Source: Owenia fusiformis (lineage: Eukaryota; Annelida; Polychaeta; Sabellida; Oweniidae). Taken from it: a stretch of 64,000 bases of DNA. Each line of letters opens with the position of its first letter. Within the stretch, counting starts at the first letter, position 1. Below the pieces are notes generated by a model that was not told the DNA's origin, did no database searches, and saw only the letters and a program-made list of their open reading frames with translations. Both the position numbers and the translations under genes were made by a program. The DNA lies in assembly GCA_903813345.2 (NCBI GenBank), contig CAIIXF020000012.1, forward strand, positions 21,586,184 through 21,650,183, in the 5' to 3' direction. Below are positions 22,401 to 49,400 of the stretch, one piece after another.

Positions 22401-25400
22401 CACACGGATATGCGTGAGATAAACGATATCACACGCATATGAGTTTGATAAACGATTTTCTGGAAAATATCACACGGATTTCAATAATATCAGAAATATC
22501 AATAGCTGTTATTGTACAGATAACACATTAATCGTGGGATAAATAAGAATACCAACCAGGTAATAGTTTGTATTTGGGTTGATCTTAGAATACAATAAAT
22601 ATAATGAAAAGAATACAATACTAAATCTATTGTTAACATTGTGCAAAAAAGATATATGAGGCATTTGTACTTAAAGTTGGCACTTATAAGTTAAATAGAA
22701 TTTTTTTCTGTTGATATTGGTGTAAATTTTATGTTGGTGTAAAAAGCGAACTATTTCATAATTTATGTAATATTAATGTTTGTTGTTGACTCACCTGCAT
22801 GCTGAGCTGACAAAGTAATAGCAGTACCCCATCCAATACACCATACTCAAGGGGACATTTGCAGCAAATCTAGAAATAATACTTTAGTCCTTTACATCAT
22901 GGAACTACTTATATTCACATTTAACCAATAGCTATTTTGTACATTAAATAATTTAATGTAACAGCACACTTTGCCAGAGAAATACAAAACTATACAAAGT
23001 ACCCCAATAGGCCCTTTAATGGTGAGTAGATTTTCAGAACAATGAAAGCATTTAGAATATAATAAACAACATACATTACAACAAAGAGCATGCAATACAA
23101 CAAACCACATAAACTACAAAAAGAGCATACAATACAACAAACACCATACACTACTACAAACAGCATACAACACAACAAACAGCATACAATACAACAAACA
23201 GCATACAATACAGCAAGCAGCATACAATACATCAAACAGCATACAACACAACAAACCGTATACAATACAACAAACAGCATACAATACAACAAACAGCATA
23301 CAACACAACAAACAGCATACAATACAACAAACAGCATACAACACAACAAACAGCATACAATACAGCAAACAGCATACAACACAACAAACAGCATACAATA
23401 CAGCAAACAGCATACAACACAACAAACAGCATACAACACAACAAACAGCATACAATACAGCAAACAGCATACAACACAACAAACAGCATAGAATACAACA
23501 AACAGCACAACACAACAAACAGCATACAATACAGCAAACAGCATACAACACAACTAACTGCATACAATACAACGAACAGCATAGAATACAACAAACAGCA
23601 TACAATACAACAAACAGCATACACTACAACGAACAGCATACAATACAACGAACAGCATACAATACAACAAACAGCATACAATACAACAAACAGCATACAC
23701 TACAACGAACAGCATACAACACAACAAACAGCATACAATACATCAAACAGCATACAACACAACAAACCGTATACAATACAACAAACAGCATACAATACAA
23801 CAAACAGCATACAACACAACAAACAGCATACAATACAACAAACAGCATACAATACAACAAACAGCATGCAATACAACAAACAGCATACACTACAACAAAC
23901 AGCATACAACACAACAAACAGCATACAATACAACAAACGGCATACAACACAACAAACAGCATACAATACAACAAACAGCATACAATACAACAAACAGCAC
24001 AGAGTACAACAAACACCATACACTACTACAAACAGCATACAACACAACAAACAGCATACAACACAACAAACAGCATACAACACAACAAACAGCATAGAAT
24101 ACAACAAACAGCATACAACACAACAAACAGCACAGAATATAACAAACAGCATACAACACAACTATCTGCATACACTACAACAAACAGCATACAATACAAC
24201 AAACAGTATACAACACAACAAACAGCATACAATACAGCAAACAGCATACAACACAACAAACAGTATACAATACAACAAACCGCATACACTACAACAAAGA
24301 GCATACAACACAACAAATCGCATAAAATACAACAAACAAGCATACAATGAAACAAACACCATACACTACTACAAACAGCATACAATACAACAAACAGCAT
24401 ACAACACAACAAACAGCATACGATATAACAAACAGTATACAATACAACAAACAGCATACAACACAACAAACAGCATACAATACAACAAAAAGCTTTTTGA
24501 TTGGCTGATCAACTTGAAGTCACTTGGATGACCACGCATTTACCTTGTTGGTCCTGAGAGATACTGTGTGAGATTTCATTGATTCTACTCATTCTTTTAC
24601 GTGATGGAATTGGTTTGAACAGCCCCACATCCCCTAAAAGTCTACTCGGATTCGTTGTGAACTCAGTAAGGTCAAATTCTGGCTCATTTATTCCTGAATT
24701 GGCAAGAAAATTTGGAGGACTTTAACCCTTAAACGGGCAGATCTGCCCCCCTAAGGAACTTTTTTTGCAGTTTATCTTTTGACCTGAAACTTTCTGGCTA
24801 ATCCTAAAACTGAATTAGGCATGTTTGAGCGAAGAAATTGTGACTTTAACCCCCCTAAGAGGAAAGTTAGAGGTGCTCAAAGTTAGTAAAATACCCAAAT
24901 TATAAGTGTTTTGACTTGAAACGAAAAAACCCTTTGTTCTAAGAACATGAATTTCTTCATTAATAATGGCTCAATATAGTTATGTATTACATACCTAGCG
25001 AAGCATTTGTATGGAAGTCAATGGAGCTGAAGGTCAGCTATATATTCCTGTATAGCCGCCAAACTTTTTTACCATGACAACTTTATGACGTCATAACATG
25101 TAAACAAAGTGATTTAGACTGGAATCGTGTAAAAATTTGGTCTTTTTTCATGTATTTCAAAGTATTATCTTTATGAAATGTTATGTAAATGTACTTTAGG
25201 TATGTAATACATCAAACTTCAGTCTGTCGTCAATATAACCCTCGCAAGCTCGGGCTATATTGACGTCAGACTTCAGGCATATATTCAATGATAGGGACAT
25301 AATGGCTAAAAATAAGCTCTCAATACTGGGAATTGTATAAACTTTCCAATGATACCTAATACACCCTAATATGATTGTCCATTTCCAAGATCACAGGGGG

Positions 25401-28400
25401 GAAAGATCTGTCCCCCTAAGCATTGGTGTAATTCTCTATAGCCTAACCATTTAAGGGTCAAGCCATACAATACAACAAACAGCATACAACACAACAAATA
25501 GCATACAATACAACAAACAGCATATAATACAACAAACAGCATACAACACAACAAACAGCCTACAATGCCACAAATAGAATAGAATACAACAAACAGCATA
25601 GAATACAAAAAACAGCATAGAATACAACAAACAGCATACAATACAACGGACAGCATAGAATACAATTAAAAACAGCACAGAATACAACAAACAGCATACA
25701 ACACAACAAACAGCATACAACACAACAAACAGCATACAACACAACAAACAGCCTACAATGCCACAAATAGAATAGAATACAACAAACAGCATAGAATACA
25801 AAAAACAGCATAGAATACAAGAAACAGCATACAATACAACGAACAGCATAGAATACAATTAAAAACAGCACAGAATACAACAAACAGCATCCAACACATC
25901 AAACAGCATACAACACAACAAACAGCACAGAATACAACAAACAGCATGCAACACAACAAACAGCATAGAATACAGCATACAACACAATAAACAGCACAGA
26001 TTACAACGAACAGCATACAACACAACAAACAGCATACAACACAACAAACAGCACAGAATACAGCATACAACACAATAAACAGCACAGAGTACAACGAACA
26101 GCATACAACACAACAAACAGCATAGAATACAACAAACAGCATAGAATACAACAAACAGCATAGAATACAACAAACAGCATACAATACAACAAACAGCATA
26201 CACTACAACGAACAGCATAGAATACAATTAAAAACAGCACAGAATACAACAAACAGCATACAACACAACAAACAGCATACAACACAACAAACAGCATACA
26301 ATACAACGAACAGCATAGAATACAACAAACAGCATACAATACAATAAACAGCCTACAATGCCACAAATAGAATAGAATACAACAAACAGCATACAATACA
26401 ACAAACAGCATAGAATACAACAAACAGCATACAACACAACAAACAGCATACAACACAACAAACAGCATACACTACAACGAACAGCATACAACACAACAAA
26501 CAGCATACAATACAACAAACAGCATAGAATACAACAAACAGCATACAATACAACAAACAGCATACACTACAACGAACAGCATAGAATACAATTAAAAACA
26601 GCACAGAATACAACAAACAGCATACAACACAACAAACAGCATACAACACAACAAACAGCACAGAATACAGCATACAAAACAACAAACAGCACAGAGTACA
26701 ACGAACAGCATACAACACAACAAACAGCATAGAATACAACAAACAGCATAGAATATAACAAACAGCATACACTACAACAAACAGCATACAATACAACAAA
26801 TAGAATAGAATACAACAAACAGCATACAACACAACAAACAGCATACAATACAAAAACAGCATAGAATACAACAAACAGCATACAACACAACAAACAGCAT
26901 ACAATACAACAAACAGCATACAACACAACAAACAGCATACAATACAACAAACAGCATACAATACAACAAACAGCATACGATACAACAAACAGCATACAAT
27001 ATAACAAACAGCATACAATACAACAAACAGCATACAATACAACAAATAGCATACCTGTGCTAAATCTGTGAATATAGATACAGCTGCTTCCAATATGTCC
27101 TCTACTTGTATTTCTACAGCTACCCCTGAGAACAACAGCTGACTAAACAGCAGCGCTGCGGCAGCCTGGAATAAACAACACTTCAACTATCATACGAGCT
27201 TCAAATGATACAAAGTTTTGAAAAAAGAAAATTACTTCTTAAATAAATAATTCTAGCATTAATTAATATCAATCAATGACAAGCAAGGCAGACAAGCTTT
27301 TAAAAATGTTTTTGATTTATTACTTAATTTTCAGTATTCAAGGTTTATAGATTTATCCATAAAAAATGTAACAAGACAACTTTTAATTGATACACTGAAT
27401 TTCCCCCCAAAAATCAAAGTAAATCAAGTTAAGTTTGTTAAATAGGTTTAGTCAGCCATGTAAGTGCTTCATTGTGAGAAATACTTAGTGAAAACACAAA
27501 ATCACTATTTCACTGACAAATAATATTGTTTGACTCTCAAATTATTATTACACAAAAAGTGACTGCCATTGAGGGAAAAAGTGCAAAACATTTTTCCCAA
27601 GGGAATATCGTCCACTGACATGTTTCCGAGGCTGCAGGCCCAGGGAACATGTCAGTGGACAGCCACTGTTTGTTTAATATTATATACCCCAAACGTACTC
27701 TTTAAACAGAATAAGAATAAAGAAATTTTCCCATTCAACTCCTATAATCCCAGCTATAGCAGCGAAGATAAAAAGTATTCAAACATGACGAATTTCTCAA
27801 CCGATTGGAATGCAGTACAGCCAATAATGAACATTCTGTATTTCTCCATACATGCACGACCGTGCTCTATTCAATCGTCCGGGTATCTATATATTGTGAC
27901 ATCACACCTATTCATGGGGAAAATAACAGTAAGTTTGGTTACTTCATGGACCCCAATCCCCAATTCTCTGAACAATGTTTTCATTTTTTATGATTGGATC
28001 GGAAAAAATAATGACAGGCCATTCAATATGAAATTCTACACTCGTTGGACAAAATGTCAGTACAAATGCACTCACCTTTGGTTCGTGCTTTGTTCGACAT
28101 TCTGTCAAACTCGTGCTGAATTTCCAAATGAATGGTCACATGACCTAACTGGTGATTAGCACTTTTCATCTTCCCTGTTAGGGATTTGGAACTTTTCAAT
28201 AGAATTAATTCATCTATTTCACATTAAGACATTTGACATTAAGTGACCATGAATAAGCCAATGAGTATCTAGAATACACATGTGGGTATAATATAATAAT
28301 TGAATATAATATCTTTTTTAAATGAAAAAATGTAGTACATTTTACGATTTGAGTTATTATAATCATAATAAATATATATTACCGTATGACTTGCAATTTG

Positions 28401-37400: not shown

Positions 37401-40400
37401 ATGCAATTGGAGGTTTTGGATACAGGGAATATCCCGAGGGATATACAATATATCTTCCCGAGGGACCGAAGGGACCAAGGGAAGATATATTATATATCCC
37501 TCGGGATATTCCCTGTATCCAAAACCTCCAAGTGCATAACTGTTGTATATAGTTTACCATGATATGTACTTCTTCCTGTAACTGGAATACGATTCTAATA
37601 TACAAGCAGCACATACGTATTCCCGGGGAACCATAAATATTTTGTGTAGGGTGTGGACATTTTTCTTTTCATTTCTCTAAAATCAGACTAAGCCTCTATT
37701 TTCGTATTCTGCATCTTAAGATATTTATAATGTAAAACCTAAGAGATAAATTCAATGTCTTCAGTTCAGAATAAGTGTAAGGTAAATGTGTGAATTTTGC
37801 TTGTTGTTGCACTATTTTTATAATAAACAAGGTTCGATACGCAACACTGAATAGACTGCAGTCATAGCTTAGTTGTAAAGAAAACTAAAGAAGCTGGGAC
37901 GTGGTCATGCTTGAATACGATTTTAAATATATCGCCGTTTACATTTGTTGAAATCGGCCTGTATTAATTTCAACAGGTGATCGGTGTACAAGGGCATATA
38001 TTTGAGTTATTGGTTTAACGATAAGTATGACCTATGAGTGGGTAATGTTTTACAAATGCATGAAACAAATACTCCAATGGCCTAATCTCAATTTTCCTGC
38101 ATAAACTATTACATTGAAATGATGGTCATTTGCTCTCTAACTTCCGCACCGCATACGTAACTTCGTAACAATTCAATAAGCCAAGACAGGACCGCTATAA
38201 TCGCTACATGCCAGTGAATATAATACATATTAGATAACAATTCTAGGATACCTTTATGACAAGACATCTGAAATATCTAAATGACATGAGATGAGATATC
38301 TGAAACATTCAACATTAAATACAACTAGACAACCTTTGTGACATTAGGTGAAATATCTCGAATACCTTTGTGACACTAGTATAGTACACGGGGGTAAAGC
38401 AGACCCGATGATGCAATGAGCTTGCTCGGCGGTATCATGACTGTGTAACGGGTCTTAATGTATAAGTGTGCTCGGCGGTAGGTTCAAACAATGCGGATCC
38501 TCAAAGCATGTGCTCATGGTATATTCGTGTTTTAACACCCGTGTAGTAGACATATTTTATATACATCTGTGACATTTGATGAGAAATGTGTAATTATGAA
38601 TTAATGACACAGGTGGACCTCTGAGGAATTACGTTTTATGAAATATCTAAAAACAGTTTGACACAATTAGGGACCATATTTGAAATACCTTTATGACATT
38701 ACAAGTCATATCTGGAAACATGACAAGTCTGAGGTAGTTGTTTGTTAAGTCTTCATTCTCCTGCATAATAAGCACTCCTGCTAAAGCCTTGGCCACCTGC
38801 AAAATTAATAATAAACATTTAACTTTCTAATTTCCAAAAGTGGAAATCTGTTGGGAATGAGAATGTGTATGCTAAAATTTATTTGATGGTCTACTGAGAA
38901 GCAATGTTATATTTCCCACCCACTAAACAAAAGTGGTTTTGGGTAGAGTTAAGATGCAATATACATCAGTGTCTAACCATTTGTTTTCCCTTGGTGCAAT
39001 TGATTGGCTCAATAGGTTGATGAGTCAGAGCAGTTAATGTTGCAACTCCCAGGGACATGATGTCTTGCATCCTACTAGCTGCTGCCTCCATATTGCCCTC
39101 ACATACTTCTAAACACACAACATTAACATTTCATGAAGATACATTCAATTCGTTAATTATATTTTAGAGAAAAACTGTTGAGGTTTGTAATCTTAAATGT
39201 TTGTTTTTGAGCGATCGCTAAACTAGATTTTGTCACAAATTAGTAGAAACAATGATTAATCTTTTTCTTCCATTTAATACTAACATCACAAAATTAGATT
39301 TAGTAAATTATCTGATTTCCACATTAAAAATTGCACTTTAAAGCATTATTTTATGCTAGGCCTTAACAGCATCATTTCTCTTGTCAATTGAAGCAATGGT
39401 AACTTCCTGATAAGACCAACATACACATGAACAATTGAACATGTACCTTGCAGCTGTTCTATGGCAACAGTGTCTTCCTGAGTAGCATGAAGAAATGTCT
39501 CCACTGTTAAAGTGTGATCATTAGCTAGGCCAGCTAGTAATTTGTCTGGGATACCAGACTTACTCCTCTCTAGGCTCTCACAAAGGAAGATGACACACTG
39601 AAATATATAAATAAGAACAAGAAAATATAGAGTCTAAAAATCTATTAAAATGGAAAACAGCAAAAGCTCAATAAAGATATTGCTACAATTACTCAAAACC
39701 TATTTATTCATATGTAAACAAAAAAGATCAAAAATAATCAAGGCTGATTATTAAGGGGGGTTCACAGTTGGGTCAATTCTAGTATATGGTGTGAAAATAT
39801 ATTCGTTGAATTGTTAGTCAAACTTGATTGCTTCTCAGAATTTAAAGTATCTTTTAGAGGCTGCTAGGACATTTATCAGTCCCCTCCCCTTTGATGCATC
39901 TGGTTGTAGAAGTAATACCTGACTTACCATGAGAGTCTGTTCCCTGAGTCTGAGGTCACAATCAAGCTTCTGTGACAACAGCTTTGGGATGAGACCAAAA
40001 AACTGCATACAGCTATCACAGTACAGCTGCTCCCTAAATATAAATAATAAAAACAAATATACAGAATATGTGCTCGTTTGTTAAACATTATGAGGGGAAA
40101 CCAAATGCTGTTGAATATGAGTAGATTACTGCCTTACCCCTTTTTACTTGGGTGCTCTGTTTGACCAAGTTCTGATGCAATGAAAGCATGGATGGTTATG
40201 ACTAGATCTAGAAGTATTTGTTGACACCAAGGTTGCTGAAACACATAAAATAAGACTTATTAAGTTTCGAATTCATTTTCTTTGTCTTGGTGGGATTGAC
40301 GTTACAGGGTAATACATGTAAAATCCACTTAAGAAGATAACAAAGAGATATATGTATGGAAAATATATTCACTTTAACTATCAACACAAAATGATGATAA

Positions 40401-43400
40401 TAATAGCACTTTGAGAAAGTGTGATAAAACCTTTCACATTATGCCCATTTTAACTTTTTTGCTAATATTTAAGACACACTTTTCCTAATAGAACAACCTT
40501 TCCTGACACATTAAAAATTCTAAGTTCTTGTTGGGCTTGATGTTCTTATTTTAGCATAGAGATAGTAACACCCTTAAAAATAAAAAACACAAGGATTTTT
40601 GTAAAAGCATCTCAAGAAATCACCTGCTTTTGATGAAGACCTGTTGCTAGTAGAATGAGATGTGACCTACCTGCTTTACATTAGCACTGTCAACAATCTT
40701 CTGTATGAGGTAGATCTGTTGCTAGTAGAATGAGATGTGACCTACCTGCATTACATTAGCACTGTCAACAATCTTCTGTATGAGGTAGATCTGTTGCTAG
40801 TAGAATGAGATGTGACCTACCTGCTTTACATTAGCACTGTCAACAATCTTCTGTATGAGGTAGATCTGTTGCTAGTAGAATGAGATGTGACCTACCTGCT
40901 TTACATTAGCACTGTCAACAATCTTCTGTATGAGGTAGATCTGTTGCTAGTAGAATGAGATGTGACCTACCTGCTTTACATTAGCACTGTCAACAATCTT
41001 CTGTATGAGGTAGATCTGTTGCTAGTAGAATGGAAGTGACCTACCTGCTTTACATTAGCACTGTCAACAATCTTCTCTATGAGGTAGATCTGTTGCTAGT
41101 AGAATGAGATGTGACCTACCTGCTTTACATTAGCACTGTCAACAATCTTCTGTATGAGGTAGATCTGTTGCTAGTAGAATGAGATGTGACCTACCTGCTT
41201 TACATTAGCACTGTCAACAATCTTCTGTATGAGGTAGATCTGTTGCTAGTAGAATGAGATGTGACCTACCTGCTTTACATTAGCACTGTCAACAATCTTC
41301 TGTATGAGGTAGATCTGTTGGTCAGGTATCCCTGTGCTGCTTAGAAATGTTGTTAACAAATCAGCATCACTGAAAAAACCAAGCAGAAATAAAATAAATA
41401 CTAGAATAAAGTATGTTATGTCTAATATACTATTTCAAAAACAATATTAACAAATCTGCATCACTGAAAGCCCAAGCAGAAAATAAAAAATTAAGAACTG
41501 CCATGAAACAATATACAGTATTATGCAAACAGTGACTTTCAAAACCAGTGATTATGCCTGGTCTTACATAAGCCACTGATACATAATACGTATTGCTATC
41601 TATGTATTATTGGTATGAAGTGTCTCCAATATACTAAATATTTTATTATTCAAATTAAGTGTTTTGGTTAAAGGTCCTCTTCACTGTACTTTTAGTTTAT
41701 TAATATAAACAACCTACCATTTTATTGTTATGATGTTAGAAATGACCTTAAGTAGAACTCTCAGTTGTGAAGCGCCCTCAAGGCCACCAGCAAGAACCTG
41801 TGATGATGTGCTTTCAAGTTTTGTCTTGAGTTTCGCAATAAAATGTTGGTCACCTAGGAATGCCATGACATCATCAGGGTCTGCATTCTCAGGGTCAGTC
41901 TGATCACAGCAGAGTTGCCACTCATCCTCACTATCTCCAGCCTAGAGATGACAAATATATTAACTTTATTTTGAAGTGGATTTATGCTTTCATTTCTGAA
42001 AGTATGTTGATCTTCTAATTTTTTGTTTGTGGACAAGAGCATGTTCAGCTAGACACATGCATTTCTTATACTTGGGTTGAAAACAATGGACACACTCCAA
42101 TCCTTAGAATTTTCATGAACCATTGATTTTGATGGAGCATTTTCATGATATGTATAATTCTGGACAAAATTTTCTACTTAAAATATAGACAAGACACACA
42201 TTGATAAGTGTCACACTTGATGAGCTAAATGGCTGCTTTGTAAATTACTCAAAATAGCCCCAAAATTGAGCTTTATATGATTAAGAAGCATTTGTTCAGC
42301 ACTATTCATTCTTTCATATTTTCATGAATGGCAATTTTGTCTGAATTAACATACTGTTGAAAATTGAACTGTACATTTTAAAATATTTTGTGATAAATGT
42401 GTCTACTAAACAAACACCCTCCATCAATTGCTGCATTTACCTCCTGTCCTTCCTCCAATTTAACCTGCTCAATAGTGTTATGTTTGTCAGTTGTCTTGGT
42501 GAGTTTCCTACTCTCTACTTCAATACTAGGGTACTCCTGGGCATAGTCCTGACTTATCCTATCTGGCCTTGGAGTGGGGTCGACTTCCTGAAATGAGTTG
42601 ACATTTTATTTACTAGATAAAACAAAAACTGCACAAAAAAACACTTATCTCTCTAGTAAACTCTTATCCCTAAATGCATCTCTTATGATTTTTTGAAAAA
42701 TTTAGATATCTGAATAATCATATCAGACTCTCTGCAGCTGAAACCTTGAGCACCTCCAGCTCCCATGATCACATTTTAATGGTGCAATATGTTCAAATTC
42801 AATTTCATGTACAAAATCAAATTTCAATGGCTTTATAATAAACAAAACACACTGACACAAGTTTAACAATAATTCACTAATAATTCTAATCACAGTTTTA
42901 GACTTTTACACCCTCCTAAAAATTTCAGAACAATACATCAAATTCTTTGGCTTGAAATGTAAATAGAAGACAAGACTAATTACAGGCAAGATTTTAGAGT
43001 GAAATATTAAAAGTGGTCCCATTGACATTTACCCAAAGTGCACAAAATCTAATTGGTTCTAGATTATCATCCATAGAACAGTGATAAAAATCCACACGAA
43101 TGTAGACTTACAGAGTGAGGCCTTTAGTATATCCATACCAAATTCACTCATCAAGATTATTAAGTGCACAATAGCTTTGAGTAAACAGCCTCAAAATCAA
43201 CAGTCAAACTGATTCTCCAGTTGAGATTTCACATTGCAATTTAGAACTCACAGGAATGCTAGTTTTCTCCCACTGTCTTGTGTGGGGTCTCTCTGGGTGT
43301 ACTGGCAATGGCTGTCCCTCCCCTTGACCTGAGGGGGGTACTGGAGGGTCAGTACCCCAGGCTTCCTTCTGTTTCTCCCCTTTCTAAAATGCAAAAACAC

Positions 43401-46400
43401 AAAACAAAATCAGGGTTGAAGAAATAAATATTTCTTGTGTTAGCACTTGATAATGCAAGTCCTTTAGGTGGCTGCAGACCATGCAATCGTGGCAATAACT
43501 CACAAATACACTTTTCAGGTTCCTAAACAAAACAGGACTAGATGCATTTATCAATGCATTGGCTTATGCAGCCTTTGCCTAAGTTGGTCTTTTTTCTTTA
43601 GGGCCTTGTTCCACATGTTCCAGTCACATTAACACTAATGATTTATGACAGTTTGTCATTGTCGGTCATGATTCTAAGCTACAAATCCTGTAATGATGAA
43701 TGCAACGGTGCATGTCTAGTGCATGGATAGACACATATTATTAACAATTAGAAATACCTTTTCTGCCTTTTTTCTAGCTTTGTTCAATATTTTTGATGTT
43801 CCAGGGGGATGCCTTTTTTCTTGAGCTTGTTTCTGTTTTGCCACTGCCATGGATGCTGACAGGGGGCGAGTGAATGGACTTTTCAGGTCCATGGTCTCAT
43901 CAGATACTAGAGTAATTAGAAACATGTCAAAAGTTTCATAATCACCCAATATGTGTACACATGTGCAAAATGTATCAAAATGTTTTTGCTTAACATGAAG
44001 AATTCAAGCACACAGGACTCAATGTTTTTTGGAAAATTGTATCCAGTTTTGATTTACGTCTTAACTCAAACTTCTATCTAATGTAACAAGAGACATTTAG
44101 CTTACCAACAACTCCCTCTGCTACAAATTCATGATACAAGATTTCTGGCCATGTCATCCTTTGTGCAGGATTCTTTGTGAGAAGTCCCTGTAAGAAGTCT
44201 TTAAACACTGGTGCCATATCTTTGGGCCAGCGAAGGGGGTCTTTAATAATCATGCTGACCAATTGGAATATACTGTTGGTATAGAATGGAGGTTGACCAG
44301 TGTATAATTCATATAGTATACACCCTAAAGCCCTATAAAACATTAGAACATGACTGTATTCATGCCTTCTTTAAACTGTACACAAAGTCAACATTTCACC
44401 CAGGTTACATTCGCAAAGAATACCCTGATAATATGTGTAATGTGTGACATCATAACGGCAGGTTGTAGTAATGATAGACCATATTGAATATTCGAAACAT
44501 CTTGGTGAGTTTTCATGTTCGAATTGTAATATAGACCTCAGAGTAGGGCCGTGCCATTCGACCGGAATCGGTCCGAACCGCGGACTTTTGTTAAAATACC
44601 GGAATTCGGAATTTTAATATCATGTTCCGAAGGGTTTCGGAACAATATCGGACCCTTACCTTAGTACTTGCTTTGAATCGTTAATATCCGTGACCATTGT
44701 TCCTCCAGTGATGTTTTCCTTCAAACTACATCCAATTTGCATGTGTATTACTCGCATAAACAAAATAAATAGCGGAGAAATCAACAGAAATCAAGTTTTG
44801 TTTTACGAACTTTGACCTTCGGATTTCATTGGAAGTAGGAATCGACGGGGCGAAAATACTCATAGATAAATGAATAAATTTACTTTTCCATGACGTCTTA
44901 CAATCTAACAGCGTTAATTAATTACATTTTAACTCTTACAATATCAGATTAATTGATTTTAGAGTCTATTTCTTTCGTAAAAACATTCAAACTTGCTTGA
45001 CAGGAAAGGTAAGTGTTAACCTGACAAACTTGGACGACGATATCGTCATGATCGCCGTCGAACTCACTCATACATAATTATTTTCATTTGTGAACCAAAA
45101 GGGGTTCCGAAAGTTCCGATTCCGTGAGACCAAGTTCCGGTTCCGATTCCGAACCGTCCGAACCGGTTCCGGCACAGCCCTACCTCAGAGCAGGGGTAAT
45201 ATCGTCAAATACACCCCTTAGGGCTAGGCACAAAAGCTTTTTGTACAGAGAACGTTTGTGCCTAGCACTGCGGGGTGTATTCGATGATATTACCCCTGCT
45301 CTTCGGTCTATATTTCTCAATAAATAAATGCTATACTGTACATGGTACTGTTGATTTACATGGCTTTTTACAATGCAGAACACCTGAAATTATTTGTTAA
45401 GCTAGGAAATGGGCCAAAAATGAATTTCGCAAGACAGAAATGATGACCATTTTCAAAATAGGCGAGCTTTTGAACCAGGAGTCATAGGGGAGTTTTCTGT
45501 ATTGATGTTGAACAAAAATAACTTGAAAGGGGAAGCCTATCGACAGAGGTTTCAAGAGAAATGGACCAAAAGTGGATTTCGAGAGACAGATGGACAAATC
45601 AAAGTTAACTAAAATGGCAGAAAATAAAAAAATGGATATAATGTTTTCCCGATTTTTTGTAACAAAATTATATCATACAACTTCTCTTTACAGTGACATG
45701 GCTTTTTACAATGCAAGACAACTGAAATTATTTGTAAAGCTAGGAAATGGGCCAAAAGTGAATTCTGCGAGACAAAAATAGCGACCATTTTGAAAATTGG
45801 CGAGCTTTTGAACCAGGAGTCATAGGGGAGTTTTCTGTATTGATGCTGAACATCAATAACTTAAAACGGGAATCCTATTGACAGAGATTTTAAAACTGGC
45901 CAATTGTTGACAGACAGACAGACGGACAAGTGAGCGATTGCAATAGCCACCATGTGAGCTAAAAAAACCTGAAATTTGAACAATTCCCAATTTGAAAAGT
46001 GAACAGTCATATTGAAAAATAAACCTGTCTAATTTGAACACTTTTCATAAAATATTACATGTTTCATACAAATATTTGAAAGTTAAACACTGATTTGTCA
46101 TGATATCAAAAATTTTAGAGAAACCTTGAATGGTCTCAATCTCAATGGGGCTTTCTAACAAGACTAAGTTCATTTGAATCGAATTTTCAACTTAATGGAA
46201 TGTAAAAGCGATGTGGTCAAAAGAACTATAGATTTTTACTGAGAATTAGTTTACATTTGTTACAAAGTCCAGAATATTGCAAATGCAAAACCTTGAAATG
46301 TGAACACCTCTTAATCTGAACGCTTTTAGCCGGTCCCAATGGTGTTTGGATTAGACAGGTTTTATTGTATTGCCAAAGTTTTGCTTAGACACAATGGTCA

Positions 46401-49400
46401 AGGTTTAAAATAGTTTTCCTTTTGACCAAAATAAATGAGAAACTTTTATAAAACCATTTAAGTCATTATTTGATTAAATATATAATTTTGCTTAAAGTGA
46501 TATATTGACTTACCACAAATCAGCAGTGTGATCATATGGTTTTTCTTCTACAAGCTCTGGTGACATGTATAGTGGGGTTCCCTGGAATAGATAAGATTTT
46601 TACCTTACATGTATCAATTTTAACCAAATGGGATGAAAAAATTAGAAGAACAAATGATTGGTAGCAATATGGTGTACTAAATTGAACACAATTTTCTCAG
46701 TTAAACCAGTCATTAAAAATTCTGAAAAATTACACATTGTCAATGAATGTTATGGCCATGGTCTTCTAAATGGTAACAATTTCATTTGAAAACATTTATC
46801 TACTTTTTTATAATATTATTTTTTATTTCTATTATTATTAAATTAATTCAGAGTTAAAAAATCATTGCCACTGAATACATTTAAGAAAATTTAAAACAAC
46901 AGGTTTGTGAAATTTTTTGTATTTCATATTGTACTCAAAGGTTATCAACGAAAAGATGGAGGTGATACAAGTAGCGGTTTTGGAGAACACTGTCTGATGT
47001 ATGGACATACTGATAGACAGACTGACAAACATACGCACATAGGCCGATAATTTGGCCCCACACTACTGGTATATAGGGCCGTGCCATTCGACCGGAATCG
47101 GTCCGAACCGCGGACTTTTGTTAAAATACCGGAATTCGGAATTTTAATATCATGTTCCGAAGGGTTTCGGAACAATATCGGACCCTTACCTTAGTACTTG
47201 CTTTGAATCGTTAATATCCGTGACCATTGTTCCTCCAGTGATGTTTTCCTTCAAACTACATCCAATTTGCATGTGTATTACTCGCATAAACAAAATAAAT
47301 AGCGGAGAAATCAACAGAAATCAAGTTTTGTTTTACGAACTTTGACCTTCGGATTTCATTGGAAGTAGGAATCGACGGGGCGAAAATACTCATAGATAAA
47401 TGAATAAATTTACTTTTCCATGACGTCTTACAATCTAACAGCGTTAATTAATTACATTTTAACTCTTACAATATCAGATTAATTGATTTTAGAGTCTATT
47501 TCTTTCGTAAAAACATTCAAACTTGCTTGACAGGAAAGGTAAGTGTTAACCTGACAAACTTGGACGACGATATCGTCATGATCGCCGTCGAACTCACTCA
47601 TACATAATTATTTTCATTTGTGAACCAAAAGGGGTTCCGAAAGTTCCGATTCCGTGAGACCAAGTTCCGGTTCCGATTCCGAACCGTCCGAACCGGTTCC
47701 GGCACAGCCCTACAGTGGTATATGGGGTGGAGACATAAAAAGAATGAAACAAACATTTGATAATGTCATAATGTCATCCCATCTTAAATTTTTAAGACTT
47801 AGTTTTAATGAGTGTTTACCTTAATTGAAGTCAAAACTAGTGTATTGATGCTCATGGCTCTTGCAAATCCAAAGTCACATAGTTTGACAACTCCTCCTTT
47901 GCCAAGTAGTATATTCTGTGGCTTCATGTCCCTATGTAGAATCCTGTGAGAGTGGAGATAGTAGAGGGCTGATACCAGCTGGCAAGCAATACTTTGCACC
48001 TAAAGTTATATATATTCAATTTGGTGGATATTATATTTTTCATGTTAACAGCAAAACAACTTTTAGACACTTGAAGTAATACGCCAACTGCTGAATGATG
48101 TACTGAAAAATATGATCACAAAAATGTTGGACGTAATGATATATGTTTCTGCATGTCAACTTGCATAATAATTATTATTCGAACATGACTGTATTCACAA
48201 CTTCTATAAACTGTGAACAAAGTCAATATTTCCCCCAGGTATTTATTCATCGATGGTCTGTACTAATAAGTGTTTCGCTCAGTGCAGTCCATAAGTAAAT
48301 GTCTGCAGGAGCGTAGCCACATATATGCAGAATACGCAGCCTCGTACTATTGAGAGTCAAAAACCAAAAGTGTAAATTGAAATAAGTAAATCATATATTT
48401 TAATCCAATAGTGTTGTTATAGTGTTATGTTTTTAATTGTCAAACAAGTGATCAGAGTTTATTTAAGCCCAGTCTGCCTTTGAACCCTATGCAAACATCT
48501 TATTCTGGGCCATTGTGAGGATGGACTGCGTGCCCCTTTCCCGTCATATCCCCGGGTCATATCCTTCTAACGAGGGTGCACTTTTCTCCGTTGTCTGTAA
48601 CTATATTGAAAGCGGGTAATACACATTGCACTAAACTGGGGACAATTAGCGTAACATTATGGTGTCAAAATACCAAAAAAAAACAATATAGGTAGTATAA
48701 GGCGCAAACAGCCTTACAACGTCAAAAACGACAAGCGTCACAGTTTTCTCAAGTTTAGTCAACCTAAAACTAAAATACTTTATCCTTATCTAATCATGAT
48801 AAAATTCACAGGGTAGCAAGATCTTGAGGACAGTATATTCTAAAATGTTTTTGAATTTTGAAAAACGGTCCATTTATAATAAATAATCCACTTATGGCGT
48901 TAGTAAAAATTGATATGTATGGAATTTAGGGTAAAAAATCGTTGTGTCACATTTTTATCGCCTAGCATACTCTTACTCGAACATTGACACCGTAGATGAT
49001 TAAGATTAAGAAGATTGATTCAAAATACAATATTTATATCACTTATTGGATAGATTAATACTTAAAAGTATGTACAATTATTCTGAGGATTTAAATCACC
49101 AGTTACAACTCAAAGTAGTTAAAGATACTGTAAGTCTTAGTCTACATTACGCAAAACAAGTAACGTAATTTAAACTTTGAGGAGACGGACAATGAAGATT
49201 GTAAATCATTAATTCTTGAAGTTGCCCAGCAGATTGAATCAAATATTTCTAGTTCAGATATTGATGTCGCACACAGAGTTGGACTTAAAATACCAGGTCG
49301 AAAGAGAGCACTTATTGCGAAGTTCAACTCAAGTGATGCTAGACAACGTATGATCAAAAATAGAAAGAAACTTGCCAAATCTGGTATTGCTATCCATGAG

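Follow-up and report, generated by a model that had tools for sequence, protein, structure and literature searches.

An exon of a protein kinase gene in the annelid Owenia fusiformis is followed, within its downstream intron, by eight copies of its own last 51 nt, each with an AG directly before it and a GT directly after it. Does this locus hold a set of micro-exons which can be spliced into the protein, or a tandem repeat that happens to lie across an exon-intron boundary? The initial annotation proposed both a tunable helix-repeat cassette and a young minisatellite that took its start from the end of an exon. The evidence assembled here points to the second: very probably, the array is a young minisatellite of the type known from lancelets as mirages, which arose by tandem duplication over the exon 11/intron 11 boundary and whose extra copies most likely leave with the intron.

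Host gene and exon-intron structure

The array belongs to a gene encoded on the minus strand of the window (i.e. the whole stretch of 64,000 nucleotides analysed; GC content 34.8%). Among translations of the window searched against Pfam, pieces of a protein kinase were recognized at 44074-44370 and 47805-47999, and six other scanned translations gave no Pfam match. The gene is putatively STK36, as named in the initial annotation; a PDB search with one kinase exon placed CDKL2 and other kinases on top, which does not settle this name. At gathering scores, no Rfam match was found in the whole window.

The exon numbers used below (10-13) are those of the initial annotation. Exon 10 ends at 41718, and exon 11 (41270-41369, minus strand, 100 nt) is bounded by an AG acceptor and a GT donor, the latter within CAG/GTAGGT. 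Exon 12 (40138-40235, minus strand, 98 nt), which starts in phase 0, is followed by exon 13 (39928-40033, minus strand, 106 nt). An AG or GT is present at every boundary between exons 10 and 13, and these exons join in phase with an open reading frame throughout. Of the 1034 nt of intron 11, 623 nt are occupied by the full repeat units following exon 11.

Anatomy of the array

Tandem Repeats Finder placed the array at 40637-41320 (minus strand), spanning the exon 11/intron 11 boundary, with a period of 75, 9.1 copies, 98% matches and a score of 1333. Its unit consists of the last 51 nt of the coding exon and the first 24 nt of the intron, repeated head to tail. There are nine full units, all with an identical CAG/GTAGGT donor. 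The first donor belongs to the real exon, whose final 51 nt constitute the first repeat copy, and the other eight lie downstream. The eight downstream exon copies (40671-41245, minus strand), each with CTACTAG before it and GTAGGT after it, are located at 41245-41195 (copy 1), 41170-41120 (copy 2), 41095-41045 (copy 3), 41021-40971 (copy 4), 40946-40896 (copy 5), 40871-40821 (copy 6), 40796-40746 (copy 7) and 40721-40671 (copy 8). Within 40601-41420, CAGGTAGGT occurs nine times, as does CTACTAGCAACAG, whose occurrences correspond to the eight copies and the array tail. Both the repeat search and the copy-by-copy listing thus bear out the eight 51-nt copies and the common donor described in the initial annotation. 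The annotated branch-like CTAAT about 34 nt before the AG is at the right distance (its A lies 34 nt before the unit end), but it is situated inside the preceding exon copy.

Seven of the nine full units are identical to one another. Copy 3 carries a C>G change (Q to E) and copy 7 an A>T change (K to M), and the unit of copy 3 is 74 nt long owing to an altered intron part after this copy. When each copy was read in the frame of the exon, all eight were free of stops, as annotated, substitutions included. Near-identical short repeats are prone to mis-assembly, and the copy number could be wrong or the array spurious. Such an artefact is scarcely credible here, given that individual units differ from the rest by changes of their own, each at another position, that the array is shorter than 700 bp and that similar arrays are found at other genes.

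Reading frame and splicing of the copies

In joined exons, insertion of any single one of the eight copies leaves the frame open. The open frame after each single insertion, together with eight stop-free, in-phase copies provided with AG, GT and a CTAAT motif, speaks for a tunable micro-exon cassette, in which one or more of copies 2-8 would be spliced in, adding 17 residues per copy. The introns of 99-548 nt that splicing from exon 11 into copies 2-8 would require are a further point in its favour. Splicing into copy 1 would require an intron of only 24 nt, with CTAAT lying before its donor, and this copy is therefore hardly reachable. The claim that any later unit would add 17 residues in frame accordingly stands for the frame (8/8 copies), but not for copy 1, whose being out of reach counts against the cassette. 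Two features that may seem to be designed for splicing are likely enough by chance: by our estimates, a copied length that is a multiple of three is expected in about 1 in 3 cases, and an AG directly before the copy in about 1 in 16.

Retention of the sequence up to any later donor introduces one or more stops in every frame tried, in agreement with the annotated stop upon retention between adjacent units. This, and the presence of nine identical donors, would suit a brake on expression, in which nine equal donors compete, use of the later ones keeps an in-frame stop in the transcript, and a longer array yields less functional mRNA through decay. Lancelet mirages, in contrast, have been described as not interfering with regular splicing (PMC3087553, PMC3902484), and we regard a brake of this kind as very unlikely.

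Divergence of the exon-derived and intron-derived parts

A comparison of synonymous and nonsynonymous differences between units had been suggested in the initial annotation. The exonic changes among the copies are nonsynonymous in 2/2 cases, which argues against the cassette. Within the kinase array, the exon part is less diverged (2/408 sites, 0.0049) than the intron part (3/192 sites, 0.0156), as might be expected of a cassette, but the difference has a p value of 0.33. Across seven arrays of the genome, the kinase array included, divergence of the exon-derived part was lower than that of the intron-derived part in three and higher in four, the latter showing the trend opposite to that favourable to a cassette. 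These values agree with the presence as well as with the absence of constraint on the copies: p is 0.33 at this locus and the seven arrays are split 3 vs 4. The seven-array comparison is to be read with its composition in mind: a donor-spacing filter dropped units (5 units were used of the 17.1-copy array C2:23500k, and 2 of the 6.2 copies in the piece examined of C2:835k), the C3 array was represented by its tail piece only, the exon-part lengths for C1:13516k and C3:3279k were fixed manually, and one of the seven, C1:51116k, has no clear exon at its first donor.

With copy 1 not reasonably reachable, both exonic changes nonsynonymous and exon parts not consistently conserved, the tunable cassette is an improbable reading. 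The other part of the annotated interpretation, a young minisatellite originating from an exon end, agrees with the near-identity of the units, the single locus and the similar arrays at other exon ends.

Origin of the array

The young minisatellite very probably formed by tandem duplication over the boundary between exon 11 and intron 11 and then grew to nine full units. A short stretch of homology shared by exon and intron, CAACAG, perhaps seeded the duplication. Since the duplication extends into the intron, the true exon is whole, with its own donor first, and the remaining copies sit in intron 11, with which they are most likely spliced away. The first donor is presumably the one used, and the array itself is probably neutral.

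The array tail (40572-40646, minus strand) bears on the seeding step. The exon copy starts with CAACAGATCT, and the stretch that follows the last full unit, immediately 3' of CTACTAG, starts with CAACAGGTCT. The likeness of CAACAGGTCT to the exon may go back either to a short homology by which the duplication was seeded or to a tenth unit that has since decayed. When the tail was aligned to the unit with gaps allowed, the score was reached by 36 of 2000 shuffles, and once the first 13 nt had been removed by 713 of 2000. Whichever origin holds, the acceptor-like CTACTAG is intron sequence lying there by chance. Judged by eye, an AG directly before the copy is present in the kinase array only, among seven arrays with a computed exon-part boundary (for the C3 array this computation failed, giving 0 nt).

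A DNA search of the genome revealed no second copy or haplotype of the kinase array, only this locus being matched; since the search skips very common words, a single locus is not proof of uniqueness. The second match of this search was an older, diverged duplicate of the acceptor side of exon 11 (41447-41497 and 41353-41406), located just upstream, in intron 10.

Tandem-donor arrays elsewhere in the genome

The O. fusiformis genome is reported to comprise 505.8 Mb in 12 chromosome-scale scaffolds (PMC9977687). A muscle myosin exon of the genome studied here is closest to scallop entries (229 bits), ahead of Myosin-7 (205) and of a squid entry (204.6); a lancelet host, considered at first since mirages are known there, was rejected in part on this match. 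Searches for the GFP family, for which the control was likewise negative, and for COX1 gave no match. The genome was searched for at least three occurrences of AGGTAAGT spaced 58-88 nt apart, with the reversed pattern as a control. The donor pattern gave 609 matches and the reversed pattern 379. On C1 and C2, the contigs covered in full for both patterns, there were 10 donor-array clusters vs 7 control clusters. By this count donor arrays are not clearly in excess, and the idea that tandem repeats specially target donors is not supported.

Eleven donor arrays were inspected (the 10 on C1 and C2, and one on C3), and a likely exon end was present at the array start in eight. Pfam supports this for a ligand-gated channel exon and for an MRPL52 exon (for which mL52 was matched in PDB too), while an HSP110-like exon is supported by a PDB match to SSE1, with no Pfam match. 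For the C2:22932k array the exon end rests on a COR-B match below the cut-off, and for C1:13516k, C2:835k, C2:27681k and C2:30316k on an open frame, in some cases with an acceptor. No clear exon was found at the first donor of the remaining three inspected arrays (C1:51116k, C2:16465k and C2:27516k).

The surroundings of myosin and kinase exons were examined at 38 loci, some of which overlap, and 22 of these contained a tandem array with a period of at least 10; in one locus the donor and the array start coincide, and in another the array starts at intron position 24. One locus (L033, 667-1472) holds a kinase exon, which we take to be LATS-like; the donor of this exon coincides with the first base of an array of 35 copies of a 23-bp unit. 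At C9:37986009-37994334, within 8.3 kb, 12 of the matches listed correspond to stretch ~18-84 of the myosin head model, and may represent a cluster of alternative exons.

One could imagine that boundary-spanning minisatellites provide a genome-wide supply of splice-ready exons, with copies 2-8 of the kinase array sometimes spliced in and the array length setting the protein. We consider this improbable, too.

Comparison with known systems

Tandem duplicated (mutually exclusive) exons are a familiar form of repeated coding sequence. The kinase array resembles them in that exon sequence is repeated in frame inside a single intron, but its copies are partial, nearly identical, 24 nt apart and putative in their use as exons.

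The closest likeness is to lancelet mirages, reported in Adh3, the globins BflGb6 and BflGb9 and TnC, and in imperfect form in PGBD5. Their units are given as 10-160 bp long, and they are reported to be unstable in length and to leave splicing normal (PMC3087553, PMC3902484). Such arrays were proposed as source material for new introns (PMC3087553). The kinase array is likewise a minisatellite-like tandem duplication over an exon-intron boundary (51 nt of exon and 24 nt of intron) with splice signals inside its units, here nine CAG/GTAGGT. It differs in being found in an annelid, in being known from the sequence of one assembly and in copying the donor side of the exon.

Human genes within segmental duplications are described as having tandem repeats of variable length at their exon-intron boundaries, which can form novel introns and alter splicing (PMC2812944). 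The kinase array, too, is a minisatellite at an exon-intron boundary; the human repeats, as portrayed there, are situated in coding exon sequence that can turn into an intron, whereas here the exon is intact and the intron harbours all extra copies. An earthworm metallothionein clone, Lr6F14, is reported to carry fourth-exon duplications that are absent from the transcript (PMC12783039), and is comparable with the kinase array in its exon duplication. The kinase array is of the mirage type, a kind already described, and boundary repeats are not confined to lancelets, human and earthworm cases being already in print. In the open-licence literature no report of mirages in Owenia was found, and one may be in print elsewhere. 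The interest of the locus comes from its annelid host and from how often such arrays are met with at exon ends: an animal remote from lancelets has mirage-type arrays at several genes unrelated to one another, and nine identical donors in a row offer a natural test of the spliceosome's donor choice.

Other repeats in the window

Two further repeats were observed in the window. Between kinase exons of the gene that bears the array there is a 640-bp direct duplication (44544-45183 and 47074-47713), the two copies of which are 100% identical. Outside this duplication, positions 23056-27054 are occupied by a 4-kb minisatellite built of about 207 copies of a 19-bp unit.
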